This document shows, piece by piece, positions 6,573 through 37,447 of a DNA stretch of 38,677 nucleotides (its first letter is position 1; each line of letters begins with the position of its first letter). The notes beneath the pieces are model-generated. The model saw only the letters and a list, made by a program, of their open reading frames with translations, made no database searches and had not been told where the DNA came from. Location: the IMG/VR virus record IMGVR_UViG_3300023174_000345, positions 1 to 38,677 of that record. One strand, written 5' to 3'. Both the position numbers and the translations under genes were made by a program. The stretch is from a virus.

Positions 6573-7730
6573 ATGGCAGTTAATATAAGCGTATGGCCAG
6601 GTTCATCATCATTCTTTCCTGGAGATACTGTGTTTGGGTACTATGACTACGACTTCGATTTTCAGACCGATGCCGATGCCACCGCTAAGTGGTGTGCCCA
6701 ACGGTTAGGATATCCGATACAAGAAGTTGAATTACAGCCAAACCATTTCTATATGGCATTTGAAGAAGCCGTAACAGAATTTGGTAATCAAGTTAACATG
6801 TATAGTGCCCGCGATTCTTTCATGAATGTGTTAGGATCATCTACCTCTCTTAACTTAACTAACCGAGTTGTTAGTGCTAATTTTAACGGGGTTCTGCACC
6901 TATCAAAAGAATATGGTAGCCTAGTAGATACCGGAGGATCTTTAACGTTGTATACGGGAAGTATCAATGTGCAATCCGGCCGTGCCGTATATGATATAAC
7001 CGATACTTCTAGAGTATATTTTGAAACTGGATCGGTAGCAAATGATGCTATTACAGTTAAGCGTTTCTTCCATGATAATCCACCTGCAGTTGCTAGATAC
7101 TTTGATCCTTATTTAGGTTCTGGTACCAATACGCAATTAATGTTGAATTCATTTGGTTGGGGTAACTATTCTCCAGGTGTATCGTTTATGATGTTACCAA
7201 TGTATGCTGATGTATTACGTTTCCAGGCAATTGAATTGAATGACATGATTCGTAAATCATCATACGGATTTGAATTCAGTAAAAATAGATTACGTATCTG
7301 GCCAGTACCTACTATGGACTTTACAATCTTTTTCCATTATCATTTGAATTCGGAAAGAGATAATCCATTACGTACTCCTTCTGGATCTATTTCGGATTTA
7401 AGTAACATTCCATATAGTAACATGTCATATGAAAATATCAATGACATTGGAAGGCAGTGGATTAGAAAATATGCATTGGCATTGTCAAAAGAAATGTTAG
7501 GACAGGTACGTGGTAAGTATTCTAGTGTACCTATTCCAAATTCAGAAATCACTTTGAATGGCGCAGATCTTTTAAGTCAGGCACAAACAGAAAAAGACGC
7601 ATTGTTAACTGAATTGAAAGAAATGTTGGATAGTTTTTCTAGACAATCTCAATTAGAACGTAAAGATGCGGAAAGCACTTCGTTACAAAGTCAAATGATA
7701 AAGATACCACTTAAAATTTATACAGCGTAA
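6573..7730 (+). CDS. gp13: Neck protein, gp13-like
   Basis: A 385-residue protein (T4 gp13 is 309). Residues 40-75 (ATAKWCAQRLGYPIQEVELQ followed by a FEEAVTEFGNQV helix) match the N-terminal domain typical of T4-like neck/head-completion proteins. That domain has an RLG-P motif followed by VEL and a helix packed with acidic residues. The C-terminal third is helical and charged. It is followed in the T4 order by genes that look like gp14 and gp15, which strengthens the call. The neck closes the filled head and joins it to the tail. The sequence is diverged from T4, so the assignment leans on motif and order. Confidence 0.6.
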   Translation: MAVNISVWPGSSSFFPGDTVFGYYDYDFDFQTDADATAKWCAQRLGYPIQEVELQPNHFYMAFEEAVTEFGNQVNMYSARDSFMNVLGSSTSLNLTNRVVSANFNGVLHLSKEYGSLVDTGGSLTLYTGSINVQSGRAVYDITDTSRVYFETGSVANDAITVKRFFHDNPPAVARYFDPYLGSGTNTQLMLNSFGWGNYSPGVSFMMLPMYADVLRFQAIELNDMIRKSSYGFEFSKNRLRIWPVPTMDFTIFFHYHLNSERDNPLRTPSGSISDLSNIPYSNMSYENINDIGRQWIRKYALALSKEMLGQVRGKYSSVPIPNSEITLNGADLLSQAQTEKDALLTELKEMLDSFSRQSQLERKDAESTSLQSQMIKIPLKIYTA

Positions 7731-9136: not shown

Positions 9137-9150
9137 GGCTTTTGTGAAAC

Positions 9151-11719: not shown

Positions 11720-12208
11720 ATGGCACAATTGCTAGATCCAACCGAGATTTTTTTCACCGCATTTGAACCTAAAGTAGCTAACCGCTTTATCATGTACGTT
11801 GAAGGAATTCCATCTTATATTATCAAGGCTGCAGGTCGTCCTGGAATCGATCAGGGTGAATTGGTTCTTGATCATATCAACATCGAGCGTAAATTAAAAG
11901 GCAAAAGCCGTTGGCAAGATGTAACTATTACATTGTATGATCCAATCGTTCCTTCCGGTGCTCAAGCAGTGATGGAGTGGGTACGTCTTCACCACGAATC
12001 TGTAACAGGTCGTGATGGATATTCTGACTTTTATAAGAAGGATATCACATTCAATGCTTTGGGACCTATCGGTGATAAAGTTGAAGAATGGACATTGAAA
12101 GGTGCATTTATTTCATCTGCAACCTTCGGTGATTTTGATTGGGCAACAGAAGATGCTATCAACATCGAACTTACATTGAAATATGATTACGCTATCTTGC
12201 AATACTAA
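11720..12208 (+). CDS. gp19: Tail tube protein gp19
   Basis: A 162-residue protein, the same length class as T4 gp19 (163). The fold signature is clear: NRFIMYVEGIPSYIIKAAGR near the start, then the VLDHINIERKLKGK block, the WQDVTITLYDPI strand, and a C-terminal FISSATFGDFDWAT ... IELTLKYDYAIL. It forms the hexameric rings of the inner tube through which DNA passes. It has its own AGGAG site and promoter, separated from gp18 by a terminator, fitting the need for high expression. An unrelated gene cluster follows only 6 bases later instead of the portal gene found in T4. Confidence 0.95.
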   Translation: MAQLLDPTEIFFTAFEPKVANRFIMYVEGIPSYIIKAAGRPGIDQGELVLDHINIERKLKGKSRWQDVTITLYDPIVPSGAQAVMEWVRLHHESVTGRDGYSDFYKKDITFNALGPIGDKVEEWTLKGAFISSATFGDFDWATEDAINIELTLKYDYAILQY

Positions 12209-12214
12209 TACTAT

Positions 12215-13237
12215 ATGAAAAAATCAGAACTAATACAAATTATCCGAGAAGAAGTACGCAACGTACTAAGATCTCGGTTGAATGAAGCGTTCAAGTCTTC
12301 AATTCTACGCGATATTATCAAAACAATTCAAGGTTCTACTAGATTTGGCGTGGCAAAGGATTTTGCTAATTCATTTGTTAAACAATCTAAAATTCCATTG
12401 GATCAAGTAACAGATGATGATATCCAAGAAATGAGTCCGGATGCCGCTTATAAAATGATTCGTAAATCTGGTGACCCAAGATTATATGTAGTGTTCATGA
12501 ACAAGGCAGGTGGTACGAATCCATATGCCAAAGAGAAATGGAACACAACGATCCCAGCTAATAGTGTCATTGCAATTGCCAATGGTCAAAACATGTTTCT
12601 TGATGTAACATATAGCCGTTATGGTTCACGTGAGCCAAGTCTACGAGCATCGAAAGACTATAGTGGTATTGGTATTGAAAAGTCTGGTGGCCGATATGGT
12701 ACTGGTATTGTGAATGTGAAAAGAGCATCGGAAGTATCTGATGTGGCATATGTTATCGATTCTAGTAAAATACATGCCTCAGGTAAAGATACTAGTGCAT
12801 TGCAATCATTGCGTACTACCCAGAAAACTGGTGCGGTAGCATTTATGACTCCAGAACAATTCAGAAAAGATAATTTAACTCGTTACAAAGAAATTCTTCG
12901 AAATCAAGCCGCAGCTACACCGGTTGATAAAATGGTAATGGAATTTATCAATTTGGCAACAGCTGCTATCACTAAAGCAGTGAGCACGGCAACAGTTAAT
13001 AGATACAACCAAATCACGGTGGGTACATTGAAAGGAAGAGATGTTACAGCTTCTGACCTATCATATACAATGCGTAATGTATTAGATAATTTCGAAAGAT
13101 ATACTAGTTACATGAAACAAGCTGCTGAAGCTGGAGAATCACCTACAGGTGGACGTAACTCATACTATACTAACGAAGCTAAAGCATATGCATTGCGAAT
13201 TAAAGAAGAATTGAATTCAATCAAAACTCTTAAATAA
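12215..13237 (+). CDS. Unknown protein with capsid-targeting-like N-terminus
   Basis: A 340-residue protein I do not recognise. The N-terminus, MKKSELIQIIREEVRNVL, is an amphipathic helix shared in pattern with the two genes that follow. It leads to LNE|A (residues 22-25), which fits the (L/I)xE|A/G cleavage rule of T4-type prohead protease gp21. The body is mixed alpha/beta with a Gly/Ser-rich centre (about residues 135-170) and a helical C-terminus; no catalytic motif is clear. It starts 6 bases after gp19, so it would be made late with virion proteins. I infer, without proof, a head-packaged internal protein. Confidence 0.6.
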   Translation: MKKSELIQIIREEVRNVLRSRLNEAFKSSILRDIIKTIQGSTRFGVAKDFANSFVKQSKIPLDQVTDDDIQEMSPDAAYKMIRKSGDPRLYVVFMNKAGGTNPYAKEKWNTTIPANSVIAIANGQNMFLDVTYSRYGSREPSLRASKDYSGIGIEKSGGRYGTGIVNVKRASEVSDVAYVIDSSKIHASGKDTSALQSLRTTQKTGAVAFMTPEQFRKDNLTRYKEILRNQAAATPVDKMVMEFINLATAAITKAVSTATVNRYNQITVGTLKGRDVTASDLSYTMRNVLDNFERYTSYMKQAAEAGESPTGGRNSYYTNEAKAYALRIKEELNSIKTLK

Positions 13238-13258
13238 ACAAAAAAGAAAGTAAAGAAT

Positions 13259-13687
13259 ATGAAACTAACAGAGTTTAGAAAACTAATCCGAGAAGAAGTT
13301 CGTAAAGTAGTAAAAGAATCTAGACGTCCATTAAAAGAAGCTGAAACACCATTTACAGAAGACCTTGCACAAGCAATGTTTAAATATGCAGCAGAGTTTC
13401 TCCCAGCTGATTACGCAAATGTGTATGACAGGAATAAATCTGGATTTAAGTATGATGTGGCAATACGTAGACCGAGTAAAAATAAACTATCGAAGGCAAT
13501 GATTGATATATTATTACTATATAAAATTGATTCGGTTGAAAAACTTTATAAAGCAGGTAATGTAAAATACACAGGTAAAGAGACAATTGAGGATTATTTA
13601 AACGGTCTTGAGGTTGATGAGTTTCGGAACGGAGCCGGAATTGAGCTCATACCGGGAGTTGTAATGTATACTGAAGATAATGAATAA
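13259..13687 (+). CDS. Unknown small protein with capsid-targeting-like N-terminus
   Basis: A 142-residue protein starting MKLTEFRKLIREEVRKVVKE and reaching LKE|A at residues 25-28, the same two-part N-terminus as its upstream neighbour. The remaining 115 residues are acidic, with no family I recognise. They carry a KYTGKETIEDYLNGLEVDEF segment, and the C-terminus is hydrophobic then acidic. A terminator follows at 13706. Cleavage after LKE would leave a mature protein of about 115 residues. The shared leader and a different body suggest a targeting signal attached to varied cargo. Confidence 0.6.
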   Translation: MKLTEFRKLIREEVRKVVKESRRPLKEAETPFTEDLAQAMFKYAAEFLPADYANVYDRNKSGFKYDVAIRRPSKNKLSKAMIDILLLYKIDSVEKLYKAGNVKYTGKETIEDYLNGLEVDEFRNGAGIELIPGVVMYTEDNE

Positions 13688-13705
13688 TTAATCTAAACAA
13701 AAGAG

Positions 13706-13731
13706 CCTCACCATTACGGTGGGGTTTTTTT
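13706..13731 (+). terminator. Rho-independent terminator
   Basis: CCTCACC (13706-13712) pairs with GGTGGGG (13718-13724), with one G-T wobble and a 5-base loop, followed by seven T. It ends the gp19-to-13687 transcript; a new late-type promoter box follows within 10 bases. Confidence 0.85.
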
Positions 13732-13739
13732 ATGTCTAC

Positions 13740-13747
13740 ATATTTAT
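13740..13747 (+). promoter_or_regulatory. Late-type promoter box with duplicated leader
   Basis: ATATTTAT is followed by ACTAAAGAAA. The same stretch, 21 bases from TACATATTT through AAAGAAA (13737-13757), recurs without a mismatch at 14681-14701 upstream of the gp26-like gene. The start codon is 19 bases downstream. Confidence 0.55.
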
Positions 13748-13766
13748 ACTAAAGAAAATTTGCCGT

Positions 13767-14108
13767 ATGAAGGAATCAGAATTACGTAAATTGATTCGTG
13801 AAGAAGTAAAAAAAGTGATGATATCGGAAGCTGATATCATTCCAACTGCTCCAGATGGTACAAAGATTGAAGATCCAAAAATTATCAATAACTTAAATAT
13901 GGCTATCAAAGCTATTAGTTCTAATTTACGATCCAAAGTAATTCAGATAATTGAAGATCCGGAAGCTGTTAAAGAACTTAAAACACCAGCACAAAAAGCT
14001 GCATTGTTAGGAGCATTTGCTATAGCATTTGGTATTACAGAAGAAGATTTCAAAACAATTATCACTAAGATTAAAAACGTACTTCCATCTAAAAATGATC
14101 AAGCTTAA
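13767..14108 (+). CDS. Unknown small protein with capsid-targeting-like N-terminus
   Basis: A 113-residue protein. The start is set at ATG 13767 because the shared N-terminus MKESELRKLIREEVKKVM begins there. An upstream in-frame GTG (13719) would lie inside the terminator and promoter. ISE|A at residues 19-22 fits the prohead protease rule. The body is helical: residues 45-75 carry IKAISSNLRSKVIQIIEDPE, followed by a small hydrophobic stretch (AALLGAFAIAFGIT) that might touch membrane. Family unknown. It overlaps the next gene by 14 bases. Confidence 0.6.
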   Translation: MKESELRKLIREEVKKVMISEADIIPTAPDGTKIEDPKIINNLNMAIKAISSNLRSKVIQIIEDPEAVKELKTPAQKAALLGAFAIAFGITEEDFKTIITKIKNVLPSKNDQA

Positions 14109-14667
14109 ACATATAGCAGAACAAGTACTTCAAGAAGCTGAAGAAAAAGTAACTTGGGGCGATGTGCAGAAGTTTTTAGATGCACTTGTCTCTGCTCAAA
14201 AGCAAGGTGGTAAAAAAGAAGCCGGAGCTGAGATTGCAAAGTCTAGTTTGAAAAAAGTAGGAATGGCCGGAGCCAAATGGGCAGCTAATTTATTAACTGG
14301 TGGTACCGCTGGTGTAATTATTGATTTAGTTGCAGACCATGGCGAAGATGTCGGATCATTTTTATTGAATCTAGGCAAGTCAGTGACACAGAAAGAATTG
14401 GAAGATCCAAAGGCATCTGAATTCAAAGCAATGACAGGACCATTTTGGGATGCAATAAAATTATCACCAGCCGTATCTCAATTATTGGATGATAAAATAG
14501 AAAAGGCTTTTATTGACCAAGTTATATTACCTAAACTAAAAACTCCAGGTGCTGAGTCAGAAGAATTACCAAACATGGATGAATTGTTAGGAACATGGCT
14601 AAATGACATGGCTCAATTAAAAGATAAAGCTGATATACACTTTACAGGTGCATCAGGAAATCTCTAA
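14095..14667 (+). CDS. Unknown protein with LQE|A leader and hydrophobic helix
   Basis: A 190-residue protein. I place the start at ATG 14095, since the upstream in-frame extension would lie wholly inside the preceding gene. The product begins MIKLKHIAEQVLQEAEEK, with LQE|A at residues 12-15. This is a shorter leader than its neighbours but has the same predicted cleavage rule, and resembles the start of the 305-residue protein at 33608. Residues about 60-85 (GMAGAKWAANLLTGGTAGVI) form a glycine-rich hydrophobic stretch that could insert into a membrane. The C-terminal half is acidic and helical. Function unknown; a packaged or ejected protein is the inference. Confidence 0.55.
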   Translation: MIKLKHIAEQVLQEAEEKVTWGDVQKFLDALVSAQKQGGKKEAGAEIAKSSLKKVGMAGAKWAANLLTGGTAGVIIDLVADHGEDVGSFLLNLGKSVTQKELEDPKASEFKAMTGPFWDAIKLSPAVSQLLDDKIEKAFIDQVILPKLKTPGAESEELPNMDELLGTWLNDMAQLKDKADIHFTGASGNL

Positions 14668-14709: not shown

Positions 14710-15591
14710 ATGTCAAATGTAGTTAACAACGAATATCCAGGTAAAAATCCTGCAGAAATGAGCAATGCTGAACTAGCCCAATTAGCGGCACAACAGTATC
14801 AGACTAACAACAACAATGCTCCTACTAGCAATTATCAATTCCCAACCGAAATTGTAGAGTTACCAAGTAAAGGACTTTTGTATCCTGAAGGTAATCCACT
14901 TCGTTCCGGTAAAGTTGAAATGAAGTATATGACTGCTAAAGAAGAAGATATTCTTACTACACAAAGTTATATCAAACAAGGAGTAGTACTCGATAAATTG
15001 TTCCAGAGCCTAATCGTGGGTAATGGTAACGGTGAAAAGATTAATTACAATGATCTATTAGTTTGCGATAAAAATGCAATCATGATTGCTGCCCGTGTAT
15101 TAGGTTATGGTAAAGACTATGAAGTTGAAATTGAAACACCTAGTGGTAACAAACAAAAAGAAACCATTGATTTAACTCAGTTCAAAGAATTGCCATTAGA
15201 TGAATCATTGTATGTTAATGGTAACCGATTTGAATTTCAATTGCCATATTCAAAACGTAATATCGTGGTAAAGTGTCTAACTCATAAAGATACTCAAGAT
15301 ATTGACGCAGAGATTCGTGGCATGAAAAAAGTTAGTTCTGGTACAGATGCCACTTTAAGTACTCGTATGTTTTATTGCATTATATCAGTGGATGGCAATG
15401 AGAAACGCGAATTTATTCGTAACTTTGTTAACAATGATCTTCTTGCAATCGATGCTCGAGCATTGCGTAGCTATATCAAACAAATTACTCCAGACCTAGA
15501 TTTAAACATAGACCTTATTGATAGGGAGGCTGGAGAACCCTTTCGTATTACGCTTCCCATCGGAGTCGATTTTTTCTGGCCTTCCGTCTAA
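14710..15591 (+). CDS. gp26: Baseplate hub / assembly protein, gp26-like
   Basis: A 293-residue protein of the T4 gp26 baseplate family (T4 form 208). Recognisable blocks are VELPSKGLLYPEGNPL (about 50-65), MKYMTAKEEDILTTQSYIK, LLVCDKNAIMIAARVLGYGK and the C-terminal LPIGVDFFWPSV. The last fits the FFWPS ending usual in this family, so the stop codon is genuine. The N-terminal 45 residues are Asn/Gln-rich and probably disordered. The 3' end overlaps a second open frame that lacks a normal start codon, raising the possibility of a frameshifted longer form. It begins the baseplate/tape-measure operon. Confidence 0.8.
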   Translation: MSNVVNNEYPGKNPAEMSNAELAQLAAQQYQTNNNNAPTSNYQFPTEIVELPSKGLLYPEGNPLRSGKVEMKYMTAKEEDILTTQSYIKQGVVLDKLFQSLIVGNGNGEKINYNDLLVCDKNAIMIAARVLGYGKDYEVEIETPSGNKQKETIDLTQFKELPLDESLYVNGNRFEFQLPYSKRNIVVKCLTHKDTQDIDAEIRGMKKVSSGTDATLSTRMFYCIISVDGNEKREFIRNFVNNDLLAIDARALRSYIKQITPDLDLNIDLIDREAGEPFRITLPIGVDFFWPSV

Positions 15592-33607: not shown

Positions 33608-34525
33608 ATGATAAAGTTATCTGGTATAGCACGTCGTTTATATGAGGCCACAGAAGCAATTGCACCGGTTGAAGCCGATGATTTCAATGCATTAGTTAAA
33701 ATTTTAGAAAGCGAAGATCTTCGTACCGAATACACTAAACTATTAACTATTTTCAATGCATTCGATCCTAACTCAGTTGGTACTATTTCCGAAATTCTCT
33801 TAACAAAAGCTATTAATAAATTTAATCAAGGATCTAACATTAAGGCACAACATACTGGAGCTAGCGGTGGATTATCTGATTTAAAACTTATGATAGGCGA
33901 CCAGCCTATAGGAATTAGTCTTAAAACGACTGGTGACAATGCTATTAACTTAGGATCAGCTAATATTACTCCTCCTGATAGTGACATTATAGAGAAATTG
34001 AAAAAATATAACGGTCGTAGTATTACCGATGTTAAAAAAGATGGCGATACTAAACTATATGATATGTGTCATAAACGCATTGAAGCAATTGCCGAGAAAC
34101 TAGCAGGAGATAAAGATAACGAGTTATTTTTATGGGTAAACAAACTAATCAGCAAAAAAGATAGCTCACTTATAACAGGAGTTAATTTCTATGTCGTTAA
34201 ATTTAAGAAGACGGCAGTTGTAAATTATTTAGAAGATACTGCTAAACTTTATATTACATCACGACCTGCATGGGGAATTCAAAATCCAGATGGTAGTACT
34301 ATAATATCAGCAGACCTAGGTCCTAAATATCTCAATATAAATAACAAACTATTTTCCAATGATTCGGCTATGTCTGATTTAGGAGCTAGATTTCAAAAAA
34401 TCAATGTACCATTAATAGACGAATCCAAATATAAAAGTCCGGAAGAGTTCAAAGCAAAACTGCAAGGACTTCCAAATAAAATCATGGATGCATTTGTTAA
34501 TTTATATGACGAACTATTCGCATAA
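33608..34525 (+). CDS. Possible packaged nuclease with LYE|A leader
   Basis: A 305-residue protein. The N-terminus MIKLSGIARRLYEATEAI resembles the start of the 190-residue protein at 14095, with LYE|A at residues 11-14 fitting the prohead protease rule. The body has a PD-(D/E)XK-like layout: E62 (TISEILL), then GASGGLSDLKLMIGDQPIGI with D91, and SLK at 104-106. Here Ser replaces the usual D/E, so the active site is uncertain. The rest is alpha/beta. A terminator follows. A head-packaged nuclease that enters the cell with the DNA is an inference worth testing. Confidence 0.5.
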   Translation: MIKLSGIARRLYEATEAIAPVEADDFNALVKILESEDLRTEYTKLLTIFNAFDPNSVGTISEILLTKAINKFNQGSNIKAQHTGASGGLSDLKLMIGDQPIGISLKTTGDNAINLGSANITPPDSDIIEKLKKYNGRSITDVKKDGDTKLYDMCHKRIEAIAEKLAGDKDNELFLWVNKLISKKDSSLITGVNFYVVKFKKTAVVNYLEDTAKLYITSRPAWGIQNPDGSTIISADLGPKYLNINNKLFSNDSAMSDLGARFQKINVPLIDESKYKSPEEFKAKLQGLPNKIMDAFVNLYDELFA

Positions 34526-34833: not shown

Positions 34834-34977
34834 ATGAAACCAGATAAGCAACTAGTTACATTAATCAAGTCTATTATTAAAGTCGTTGGATTTGGCATGT
34901 TATTATTCAATCCGACTATCGGAGTAGCAATGCTTATTGCCTCAGAATGTTTTACATTAATCAAACAATTGTTATGA
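34834..34977 (+). CDS. Small membrane protein, 47 aa
   Basis: A 47-codon ORF from ATG 34834. The product has a basic N-terminus and a hydrophobic centre (IKVVGFGMLLFNPTIGVAML), with the C-terminus ending KQLL. It overlaps the queD start by 4 bases (ATGA), so the two are probably translated together. It looks like a single- or double-pass membrane peptide. Too short for the usual gene callers; real because of the overlap pattern and composition. Confidence 0.5.
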   Translation: MKPDKQLVTLIKSIIKVVGFGMLLFNPTIGVAMLIASECFTLIKQLL

Positions 34978-35678
34978 AAAAGCAGTACATTACAAGAAAA
35001 GGAACGTTCGATTCCGGCCATCGAGTTATGAATGAGCGTATGAAATGCTTCAATATGCATGGTCATACCTATTTATACGAACTCGAATTTGAATTCAATT
35101 CCATGGAAGCTATTGGCTATGCTATCGACTTCAAGGAAATTAAACGAGTAGGATGCCAATGGATTGATGACATGTTAGATCATGGCTTCATTGTGAATCC
35201 TAAAGATGATGATGTTATCAAGGCATGCCAGTTAACTGGTTCAAAGATTTGGTATATGTCATTGAATGGTAGCAATCAATATTGTAATCCATCAGCTGAA
35301 AACATTGCCAAAGAAGTTTTCTTAGCCATGTTTGTATTGTTTATGCCATATGAAAATTTACGTATTCATAAAATAACATTGTACGAGACTCCAAATAGTT
35401 ATACTACATGTACATTGGAATCATTTGATAATACTGAATGGGACAATTGGATGCGACATAACAAAGATGGTGTAGATTTTTATCGTGATCAGAAAGGCGT
35501 AGTTGAGTATGATGATCGTAGAATCAGTCTAGAAGGTAATCCAAAAGGCAATGGATTGGTAGATAATTTTATCAAAGAAGAACAATCATTCTCAGTTAAG
35601 AATACTCCTAATCGTCGTACAGATGATCAAGAAGCCGCGGCATGGAAAGAATACTTTAAAAATAACAATCATCAATGA
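34974..35678 (+). CDS. queD: 6-carboxytetrahydropterin synthase, QueD
   Basis: A 234-residue protein. The start is ATG 34974, in the ATGA overlap with the previous small gene; an upstream in-frame alternative (34947) would lengthen the N-terminus without family support. The first 130 residues are the QueD/PTPS core: zinc ligands H16, H29 and H31 (FDSGHRV, then CFNMHGH), catalytic C25, IDFKEIK (51-57), LDHGF, SAENIAKEVF and YETPNS. It makes 6-carboxytetrahydropterin from dihydroneopterin triphosphate. About 100 further residues form an extension, charged and partly disordered, not part of the usual enzyme. The stop overlaps queE. Confidence 0.9.
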   Translation: MKKQYITRKGTFDSGHRVMNERMKCFNMHGHTYLYELEFEFNSMEAIGYAIDFKEIKRVGCQWIDDMLDHGFIVNPKDDDVIKACQLTGSKIWYMSLNGSNQYCNPSAENIAKEVFLAMFVLFMPYENLRIHKITLYETPNSYTTCTLESFDNTEWDNWMRHNKDGVDFYRDQKGVVEYDDRRISLEGNPKGNGLVDNFIKEEQSFSVKNTPNRRTDDQEAAAWKEYFKNNNHQ

Positions 35679-36448
35679 GAAAGAGAATAGAAGACTATAA
35701 TAAAGTACTGCCTATTATTGAACTATACGTTTGTGTTCAATCCGAAGGATCTCGTCAAGGAATGCCTACAATTGCAGTAAGAACTACCGGATGTACTCAT
35801 AGATGTTTCTTTGGAGAAGGTGGATGGTGTGATAGTTGGTACACAAGTATTCATCCTGAGAAAGGAAAGTTCACTTTCAATGACATCATTAAGATCTACG
35901 ATGAGAATCCAACTATTACAGAAATGATGCTGACAGGTGGTTCACCTACAATGCACCCAGTTCTAATCAATGAACTAACTCATTTTGCATATGATAGAGG
36001 TATTGTTATCACAATGGAGACAGAAGGATCGCATTATGTTGAAACCGACTATCCTATTGAGTTACTTTCTATTAGTCCCAAGTTCAGTAATAGCGTTCCT
36101 CAGATCGGAGCAGTAACACCTTTAGGAGATGAGGTAGATGAGAAGTTTGTAAAACAGCATAACAAGTTTCGTTTGGATAAAGAGACGATGTTGAAGATGA
36201 TTAACTTCCATTACGATTATCATTTGAAACCGGTATGGGATGGTACAGAGGCAAATATCTTAGAGATCGAATCATTTAGACAGCAAATGGATATCCCAAA
36301 AGACAAAGTATGGTTAATGCCCGCGGGCGATACTAGAGAAGAACTCATTAAGATGTATCCTCTATCCTTAGAGAAAGCAGCTGAGATGGGTTATAATTGG
36401 ACCGGTAGAGATCATATTATTGCGTATGATACTAAACGCGGCGTATAA
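35675..36448 (+). CDS. queE: 7-carboxy-7-deazaguanine synthase, QueE
   Basis: A 257-residue radical SAM enzyme, coupled to queD by an ATGA overlap. The N-terminal QSEGSRQGMPTIAVRTTGC is typical. The cluster-binding cysteines are C40, C44 and C52 (CTHRCFFGEGGWCD), so the spacing is C-x3-C-x7-C rather than C-x3-C-x2-C. LTGGSPTMHP and METEGSHYVE match the SAM- and substrate-binding blocks. It converts 6-carboxytetrahydropterin to 7-carboxy-7-deazaguanine, the precursor of preQ0. The product could supply queuosine tRNA or modified phage DNA. Confidence 0.88.
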   Translation: MRKRIEDYNKVLPIIELYVCVQSEGSRQGMPTIAVRTTGCTHRCFFGEGGWCDSWYTSIHPEKGKFTFNDIIKIYDENPTITEMMLTGGSPTMHPVLINELTHFAYDRGIVITMETEGSHYVETDYPIELLSISPKFSNSVPQIGAVTPLGDEVDEKFVKQHNKFRLDKETMLKMINFHYDYHLKPVWDGTEANILEIESFRQQMDIPKDKVWLMPAGDTREELIKMYPLSLEKAAEMGYNWTGRDHIIAYDTKRGV

Positions 36449-36465
36449 AAAAAGATAAAAAAAGA

Positions 36466-36497
36466 TTTGGAAAATTGATTGTTTCACCTTAAATTTA
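36466..36497 (+). promoter_or_regulatory. Middle-type promoter of the GroES-like gene
   Basis: TTTGGA (36466-36471) and TAAATTTA (36490-36497) are 18 bases apart. The best start codon is at 36506, 8 bases after the box, so the mRNA leader is very short. Confidence 0.6.
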
Positions 36498-36505
36498 TGT
36501 TACTT

Positions 36506-36802
36506 ATGAAAATGACACCTAACGGAGATTACGTACTCCTAAAAGACGAAGCGCCTGTTACTAAAACAGCAAGTGGTATTATTATTCCAGATACCGTAGA
36601 AAACAATTACACTAATGCAGAAGTAATTGCTGTAGGTCCCGGATTGTATACAATGACCGGAGACATGATTCCAATGCAATGTAAGGTAGGAGACCAAGTT
36701 ATGGTACAGACCCATCAGATCAAGAATAGCCGAATCAGTATTGACGGTACGGAGTATTCATTGGTTCATGAGAGCGAGATTGCAATGATTTCAACAAAAT
36801 AA
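36506..36802 (+). CDS. GroES-like co-chaperonin
   Basis: A 98-residue protein. I start it at ATG 36506, since earlier in-frame codons lie in or before the promoter box. It has the GroES pattern: a mobile loop region with TASGIIIPDTVENNYTNAEV, then IAVGPG, KVGDQVMVQ and the closing IDGTEYSLVHESEIAMI. It would cap host GroEL and help fold phage proteins such as the capsid, as T4 gp31 does. It lies between queE and folE with its own promoter. Confidence 0.85.
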   Translation: MKMTPNGDYVLLKDEAPVTKTASGIIIPDTVENNYTNAEVIAVGPGLYTMTGDMIPMQCKVGDQVMVQTHQIKNSRISIDGTEYSLVHESEIAMISTK

Positions 36803-36805
36803 TTT

Positions 36806-37447
36806 ATGGTAAAACTTAAGTACGCAAATCAAAATGTTCCTCGTACAGAAGAGGAAAGGAAACAAATGATTGAAGATGCTGCTATCCATTACGGTAAGTA
36901 TATGGATGCATTAGGCATTGATTGGCAAAATGATCCAAATTCTTCTGATACTCCTCGACGAGTAGCAAAGGCATTTGTCAATGATTTGGCTCAAGGATGT
37001 TTCGATACTCCTCCCAATATCACTGCATTTGATAATCTAGATGGTTATGAAGGCATGGTATTCCAAGGCAATATCGATCTTAAATCATTTTGTTCACATC
37101 ACCACCTTCCATTTGTAGGAGTAGCTCATGTGGCATATATTCCTAGCAAAGATGGCAAAGTAATTGGTCTTAGTAAATTGAATCGTATCGTAGAATGGTT
37201 TGCCCGTAGACCTCAGGTACAAGAAAACCTTACCATGCAAATTCATCAATATCTCAATGAGGTATGTGAAAATAATAATGGGGTAGCTGTGGTATGCGAA
37301 GCTAACCATATGTGTGCTTGTGTAAGAGGTGTTCGTCATAATTCCACAATGATGACTAGTCATTTATCTGGTGCATTTAAGAACGATCCAGCTACTAGAG
37401 AGGAATTCTATAAGTTTGTGGAAAACGTTAAACATTATCGTAAGTGA
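36806..37447 (+). CDS. folE: GTP cyclohydrolase I, FolE
   Basis: A 213-residue enzyme that makes dihydroneopterin triphosphate from GTP, the first step of the 7-deazaguanine route. Residues 94-112 hold the zinc site and active centre ([18 protein letters not shown]), with C96 and H98-100. [20 protein letters not shown] follows, and C170 is in [12 protein letters not shown]. The length agrees with the family. It starts 3 bases after the GroES-like gene and overlaps the hpt start (GTGA). Confidence 0.94.

Follow-up and report, generated by a model that had tools for sequence, protein, structure and literature searches.

The window, by which we mean the whole 38.7 kb stretch of DNA analysed here (virus record IMGVR_UViG_3300023174_000345), comes from an uncultured aquatic phage and carries a T4-like tail module, in which the genes for the adaptor, sheath, tube, gp26-like hub and tape measure start at positions 6573, 9489, 11720, 14710 and 16077 respectively; replication and deazaguanine genes, the latter recognised by reading of their translations, lie downstream. 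The record is a fragment, and we see no head genes (capsid, prohead protease) within it. Between the tube and hub genes sit four open reading frames, all present where the initial annotation had placed them (Table 1), arranged head to tail with successive gaps of 6, 21, 79, -14 and 42 nt; given this arrangement within the tail operon, they are probably expressed together with the structural genes. By its hub gene, the nearest cultured relative of the window phage infects Flavobacterium, and the gp26-like gene is common to the window, RM378 and Flavobacterium phage immuto. Relatives also give matches over cut-off to Gp23 and to the S77 protease; by these genes, the window phage and its relatives may be Far-T4-like, Far-T4 phages having head and tail genes of T4 type yet standing apart from T4 and cyano-T4. 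Separately, the QueD-, QueE- and FolE-like genes read from translations at 34947–37447 point to a probable deazaguanine DNA modification.

Table 1. Leader genes, candidate leader genes and flanking tail genes in the window (↓ marks a cut or predicted cut, here and in the text)
Feature	Position	Strand	Remarks
Tail tube protein (gp19-like)	11720..12208	+	Homology to immuto tail tube; separated by 6 nt from leader protein 1
Leader protein 1, 340 aa	12215..13237	+	Leader residues 1-24 (12215-12286), predicted cut LNE↓A
Leader protein 2, 142 aa	13259..13687	+	Two sites, VKE↓S (canonical, after residue 20 at 13318) and LKE↓A (after residue 27 at 13339)
Leader protein 3, 113 aa	13767..14108	+	Leader residues 1-21 (13767-13829), predicted cut ISE↓A
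Leader protein 4, 190 aa	14095..14667	+	Short leader residues 1-14 (14095-14136), predicted cut LQE↓A
gp26-like baseplate hub subunit	14710..15591	+	Matches the baseplate hub subunit of Flavobacterium phage immuto by tblastn (52%); starts 42 nt downstream of leader protein 4
Additional candidate, 82 aa	15821..16069	+	Predicted cut LTE↓G after residue 13 (15859)
Weaker candidate, 305 aa	33608..34525	+	N-terminus MIKLSGIARRLYE↓A, found by regex

Three of the four products (12215, 13259 and 13767, named by first position) begin with similar helices, reading MKKSELIQIIREEVRNVLRSRLNE↓A, MKLTEFRKLIREEVRKVVKE↓SRRPLKE↓A and MKESELRKLIREEVKKVMISE↓A, and have in common a 20-residue leader of the form MKxSE[LF]xx[LI]IREE[VI]xxV[LIV]xE; the leader of 14095 is shorter (MIKLKHIAEQVLQE↓A), all in keeping with the initial description. 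We take 13767 to start at an ATG within a longer GTG frame, its homologues likewise beginning at MK. The sites first singled out (LNE, LKE, ISE and LQE, each followed by Ala) are indeed all there, but in 13259 the canonical VKE↓S precedes the LKE↓A that had been picked. Across the family, the cut-like site falls at residue 20, those of 12215 and 13767 being shifted 4 and 1 residues later; a homologue of 12215 (L165) retains LNE↓ at the body boundary (VISE↓QSLNE↓D), and one of 13259 (L024) retains both sites (INE↓S, VKE↓N). Behind the leaders, the bodies are, as proposed, unrelated to one another, falling into separate homology families. Domain searches of the four proteins return no match, no homologues of 12215, 13767 or 14095 are found among 50,697 named phage records, and AlphaFold2 models of 12215 and 14095 are of low confidence (pLDDT 58 and 53) and too poor to use.

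Judged by its sequence, 15821 belongs to the same set and makes a good case: in a nine-member alignment the N-terminal parts diverge in both sequence and length, with Glu as the sole invariant residue there, and the LTE↓G site is conserved in the homologues, where it is always [LIM]xE↓[GS]. The gene at 33608 may be a further member, as a weaker case; its leader, like that of 14095, begins in the style of the class-2 leader described below, and no homologue is seen in the loci compared. A possible nuclease identity for 33608 found no support in database searches and was rejected.

Looking beyond the window, a DNA pattern covering leader residues 1–17 finds at least 118 matching stretches in viral contigs but does not match any of 84,980 bacterial and archaeal genomes (257 Gb); the shared leader is thus not a product of chance. 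A protein regex covering residues 1–18 recovers, from viral-contig loci, at least 140 distinct proteins with different bodies. In a logo of 140 distinct proteins, columns 1–20 of this ‘class-1’ leader are conserved (MK[KIL][ST]E[LF][RK][KQ][LI]IREE[VI]xK[VI][LIV]xE), with Glu20 found in 122 (87%), a position that neither the DNA pattern nor the regex required; information then falls from 3.1 bits to 0.5 at residue 21 and is about background from residue 22. The P3 residue is aliphatic, often Val rather than Leu or Ile, and residue 21 is most commonly A, G, S, E or D. Such an abrupt end of conservation at (L/I/V)xE is the boundary expected of a propeptide cut at this point. The helix itself is amphipathic (moment 0.51 versus 0.28 when shuffled). 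A tblastn search with a 21-residue leader query gave no match, the query probably being too short, and the class-1 leader is not found by profile in T4, RM378, SP-15 or Mel-JY01.

Relatives of the 13767 body occur in 37 distinct N-terminal contexts, with Glu at the boundary in 37/37, Leu or Ile at P3 and, after the Glu, mostly Ala; these contexts include class-1 leaders, the unrelated MTPDKFKQLLKEFAPQxQLQE, the short MTRIKLKGLIKE and two internal fusions (L025, L295) in which the body follows some 90 to 340 residues of a different protein. For relatives of 14095, the boundary is mostly LNE↓A, LQE↓A or LLKE↓A, and in L343 a frame from about 1801 encodes a 738-aa protein with a 14095-type body fused behind TLNE↓. 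This protein as a whole looks polyprotein-like: it combines a zinc-ribbon-like part, a NUDIX domain, the body of 14095 type and other modules, several of them preceded by LNE, INE or MNE.

For a wider view of such exchange, 182 distinct class-1 bodies were sought elsewhere, class-1-like contexts being removed by profile. Behind short alternative leaders, [LIVM]xE lies exactly at the body boundary in 8 of 15 (null 2.9%, P = 3e-9; one of the eight is a leader-like helix with an alignment that starts early), and in internal-fusion contexts it does so in 5 of 15 (P = 5e-5) and lies within 3 residues in 9 of 15; counter-examples are the internal fusions in L180 and L197 and one in L088, which have no site at the boundary. 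In immuto (NC_055915), both gp079 (114006–116531) and gp071 (123578–124660) contain internal copies of the leader helix together with a site (KSELKEIMLEAYIEVLQEE, KKAELKEGFKKLIKKVLSEE).

In T4, IPI, IPII, IPIII and Alt carry a capsid targeting sequence (CTS) that is cut by gp21. A second leader, MIKLxDILxE↓ (M-I-K-L-x-D-[IL]-L-x-E; ‘class 2’), found in the arrays G011 (165621–169062) and G013 (105660–108459), has by eye the same 10-residue register as the propeptides of IPIII (MKTYQEFIAE↓A) and gp24 (MAKINELLRE↓S), with residue types alike; its Glu10 is no independent result, since the class-2 regex asked for Glu, and neither class-1 nor class-2 profiles find a match in T4. The layout of the gp24 propeptide is near identical to class 2 (K3, aliphatic 4, acidic 6, aliphatic 7 and 8, Glu10), although gp24 is a shell protein and the class-2 cargoes are not. 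Within IPIII, residues 4 and 7 govern targeting and residues 8 and 10 processing (PMC9026906); in class 2 the same four positions hold aliphatic residues or Glu.

Nearly all class-1 cargo is orphan. Among the class-2 cargo are an ADP-ribosyltransferase (G002:99190–99810; PF03496 4.5e-8; PHROG RNA polymerase ADP-ribosylase 7e-5), another ART-like protein and two zeta-toxin-like kinases; in the G013 array, a neighbouring gene is ferritin-like. The first of these, seen also as L206:19190–19810, joins the leader MIKLKDLLE↓ to an ADP-ribosyltransferase domain and is a candidate functional analogue of T4 Alt. The possibility, raised in the initial annotation, that the leader is equally common on clearly non-packaged proteins is not borne out: the class-1 leader occurs on 0 of 157 control genes (structural, replication, metabolic) versus 59 of 1,890 others (P = 0.02) and, because these leader-free controls include virion shell and tail proteins, the tag marks accessory proteins.

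In relatives, an AT-rich motif, TATTTATA, precedes 33/112 structural genes, 11/59 leader genes, 4/43 replication genes and 118/1833 others (leader versus other genes, P = 0.0016); being commoner upstream of structural and leader genes, it suggests a shared late expression and may represent a late promoter element. Exact copies of ACATATTTATA stand at 9149, 13738 and 14682 of the window, upstream of structural and leader genes; with one mismatch allowed, ACATATTTATA shows no enrichment in the window alone.

Does the enzyme that could cut such sites accompany the leaders? Of 17 long leader-bearing viral contigs, 16 score above cut-off for a gp21-type protease (S77, PF03420), as do immuto and LR756508, an uncultured record of 484 kb; the single contig without it is also without gp23. 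The protease accompanies the T4-type capsid gene in each of the 18 relatives examined that have this gene (T4 itself not counted). The major capsid proteins of the relatives, in those read, begin with a conserved stretch whose end reads LLENQAKQLVTE↓A, QLVTE↓A, IVSE↓A or similar, which falls where mature T4 gp23 predicts. As this capsid propeptide ends VTE↓A, VxE↓A is a plausible site for the S77 protease, beside LxE or IxE.

We consider it very probable that the leaders are capsid-targeting propeptides, carried as interchangeable cassettes by proteins that would be packaged and probably ejected; the prohead-cleavage signal suggested at the outset predicts the boundary, the swaps and fusions, the S77 protease, the capsid propeptide, the unrelated cargo with an ADP-ribosyltransferase in it and the lack of the long leader on control genes, each of which we see. 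In a Far-T4-like phage, the leader proteins would then be made as precursors of internal head proteins: either the amphipathic helix (class 1) or the MIKLxDILxE-type peptide (class 2) would dock the precursor into the prohead core, and the phage's gp21-type S77 protease would cut after (L/I/V)xE, freeing the mature protein within the head. Present in the virion, this mature protein would probably be ejected with the DNA, acting on the host early in infection. The tag would be exchanged between cargoes, with cargoes sometimes strung together in precursors that have (L/I/V)xE at their joints.

A different role for cleaved head proteins is suggested by gene placement in some genomes: leader genes lie between the protease and scaffold genes in G002, G017 and G008, and positions equivalent to T4 gp67/gp68 and gp21–gp22 are occupied by leader genes in some genomes and, in immuto, by gp072 (gp67/68 position) and gp071, both with leader-like helices. 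T4 gp22, gp67 and gp68 are cut at the same motif (PMC9026906), and the leader proteins could accordingly be core or scaffold parts of the prohead that are targeted and cleaved, then removed or retained, with no ejected effectors among them; we think this unlikely, core proteins being expected to be conserved, whereas the cargo varies widely, with ADP-ribosyltransferases and kinases among it. In immuto, gp069, which adjoins the protease, has the body that class 1 carries in L149, here with another leader, which ends IQE↓. Gene order also counts in favour of the capsid-targeting reading: of 51 leader genes in nine genomes, 11 are placed between the portal and capsid genes versus 4.0 expected (P = 0.003), an enrichment that comes from 3 of the 9; elsewhere leader genes form arrays away from the head cluster, and head-cluster placement as a general rule was rejected, as it holds in these three genomes only. 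Leader genes are themselves clustered (26 close pairs versus 3.7 by chance), and the T4 ip genes likewise stand apart from the T4 head genes.

Leader genes also flank the tail tube gene, both in the window and in several relatives, and an amphipathic helix on cargo mostly of unknown function might instead dock to something else in phage or host (tail tube lumen, baseplate, nucleoid, host polymerase), the proteins not being head cargo at all. This we regard as distinctly improbable, for it gives no account of (L/I/V)xE being kept where an unrelated peptide or another protein takes the place of the helix, of the 10-residue register shared with the T4 propeptides, or of leader genes between protease and scaffold. 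A shared N-terminus that plays no part in targeting, being only a paralogous remnant or a 5' module prone to recombination, with bodies that diverged after gene duplication, would lead one to expect adjacent leader-gene arrays and recombination at the leader, but is very improbable indeed, since conservation ends abruptly at one residue, the same body stands behind several unrelated leaders and in fusions with the site kept, and divergence alone would not preserve (L/I/V)xE.

Returning to capsid targeting as our preferred reading, the resemblance to T4 IPs and Alt lies in a short N-terminal propeptide ending (L/I)xE↓ on unrelated small proteins, in an ADP-ribosyltransferase among the cargo, and in the 10-residue register that class 2 shares with IPIII. 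Propeptides of the T4 CTS are ~10–20 residues long on unrelated mature parts, as are class 1 (20) and class 2 (10), and end in the gp21 site (L/I)xE, as does class 1 (Glu20 87%, P3 aliphatic, Val in part). Unlike the T4 proteins, the class-1 leader is twice as long, forms a different amphipathic helix and commonly has Val at P3, whereas the cargo set of the leader phages is far larger and more varied, with leaders swapped and multi-module precursors. T4 packages the ADP-ribosyltransferase Alt, and the cleavable N-terminal tag known from T4 has been suggested as a general loading route for varied proteins (PMC9026906). The head propeptides of SPN3US and phiKZ offer a further parallel, the prohead protease cutting after xxE, with identical N-termini on the diverged paralogues gp53 and gp54 and redundant sites; unlike the leaders, they are mostly over 100 residues long, with the motif S/A-x-E (PMC5694885, PMC9026906).

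What is new here is a distinct, longer tag, its scale, the swapping and the polyprotein-like fusions. The passages searched in two papers on Far-T4 phages make no mention of internal proteins; within the open-licence literature, no paper joins the phrase ‘capsid targeting sequence’ to metagenomes, and we found no virion proteomics or mass spectrometry of leader-bearing phages, immuto included. On a broader picture, in which Far-T4 and related huge phages use modular delivery, with few cleavable tags, a large, fast-changing effector pool and some polyproteins cut in the head, we find ourselves evenly divided. Should the capsid-targeting reading be true, a short tag would single out, among the many uncharacterised genes of abundant aquatic phages, those whose products are packaged and reach the host with the genome, and hundreds of orphans would become candidate early effectors (for counter-defence or host takeover); it would also provide new packaging tags of the kind used in T4 for foreign-protein loading, and suggest polyprotein processing inside a phage head.

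Some irregularities in genes of the relatives may be recorded. At 156507–158102 of LR756508.1, the S77 match falls in two pieces inside one 576-aa frame, as if interrupted by an insertion (possibly an intein). The portal genes of G002 and G008 are unusually long, at 1008 and 1340 aa respectively, and TerL of G017 is in pieces.
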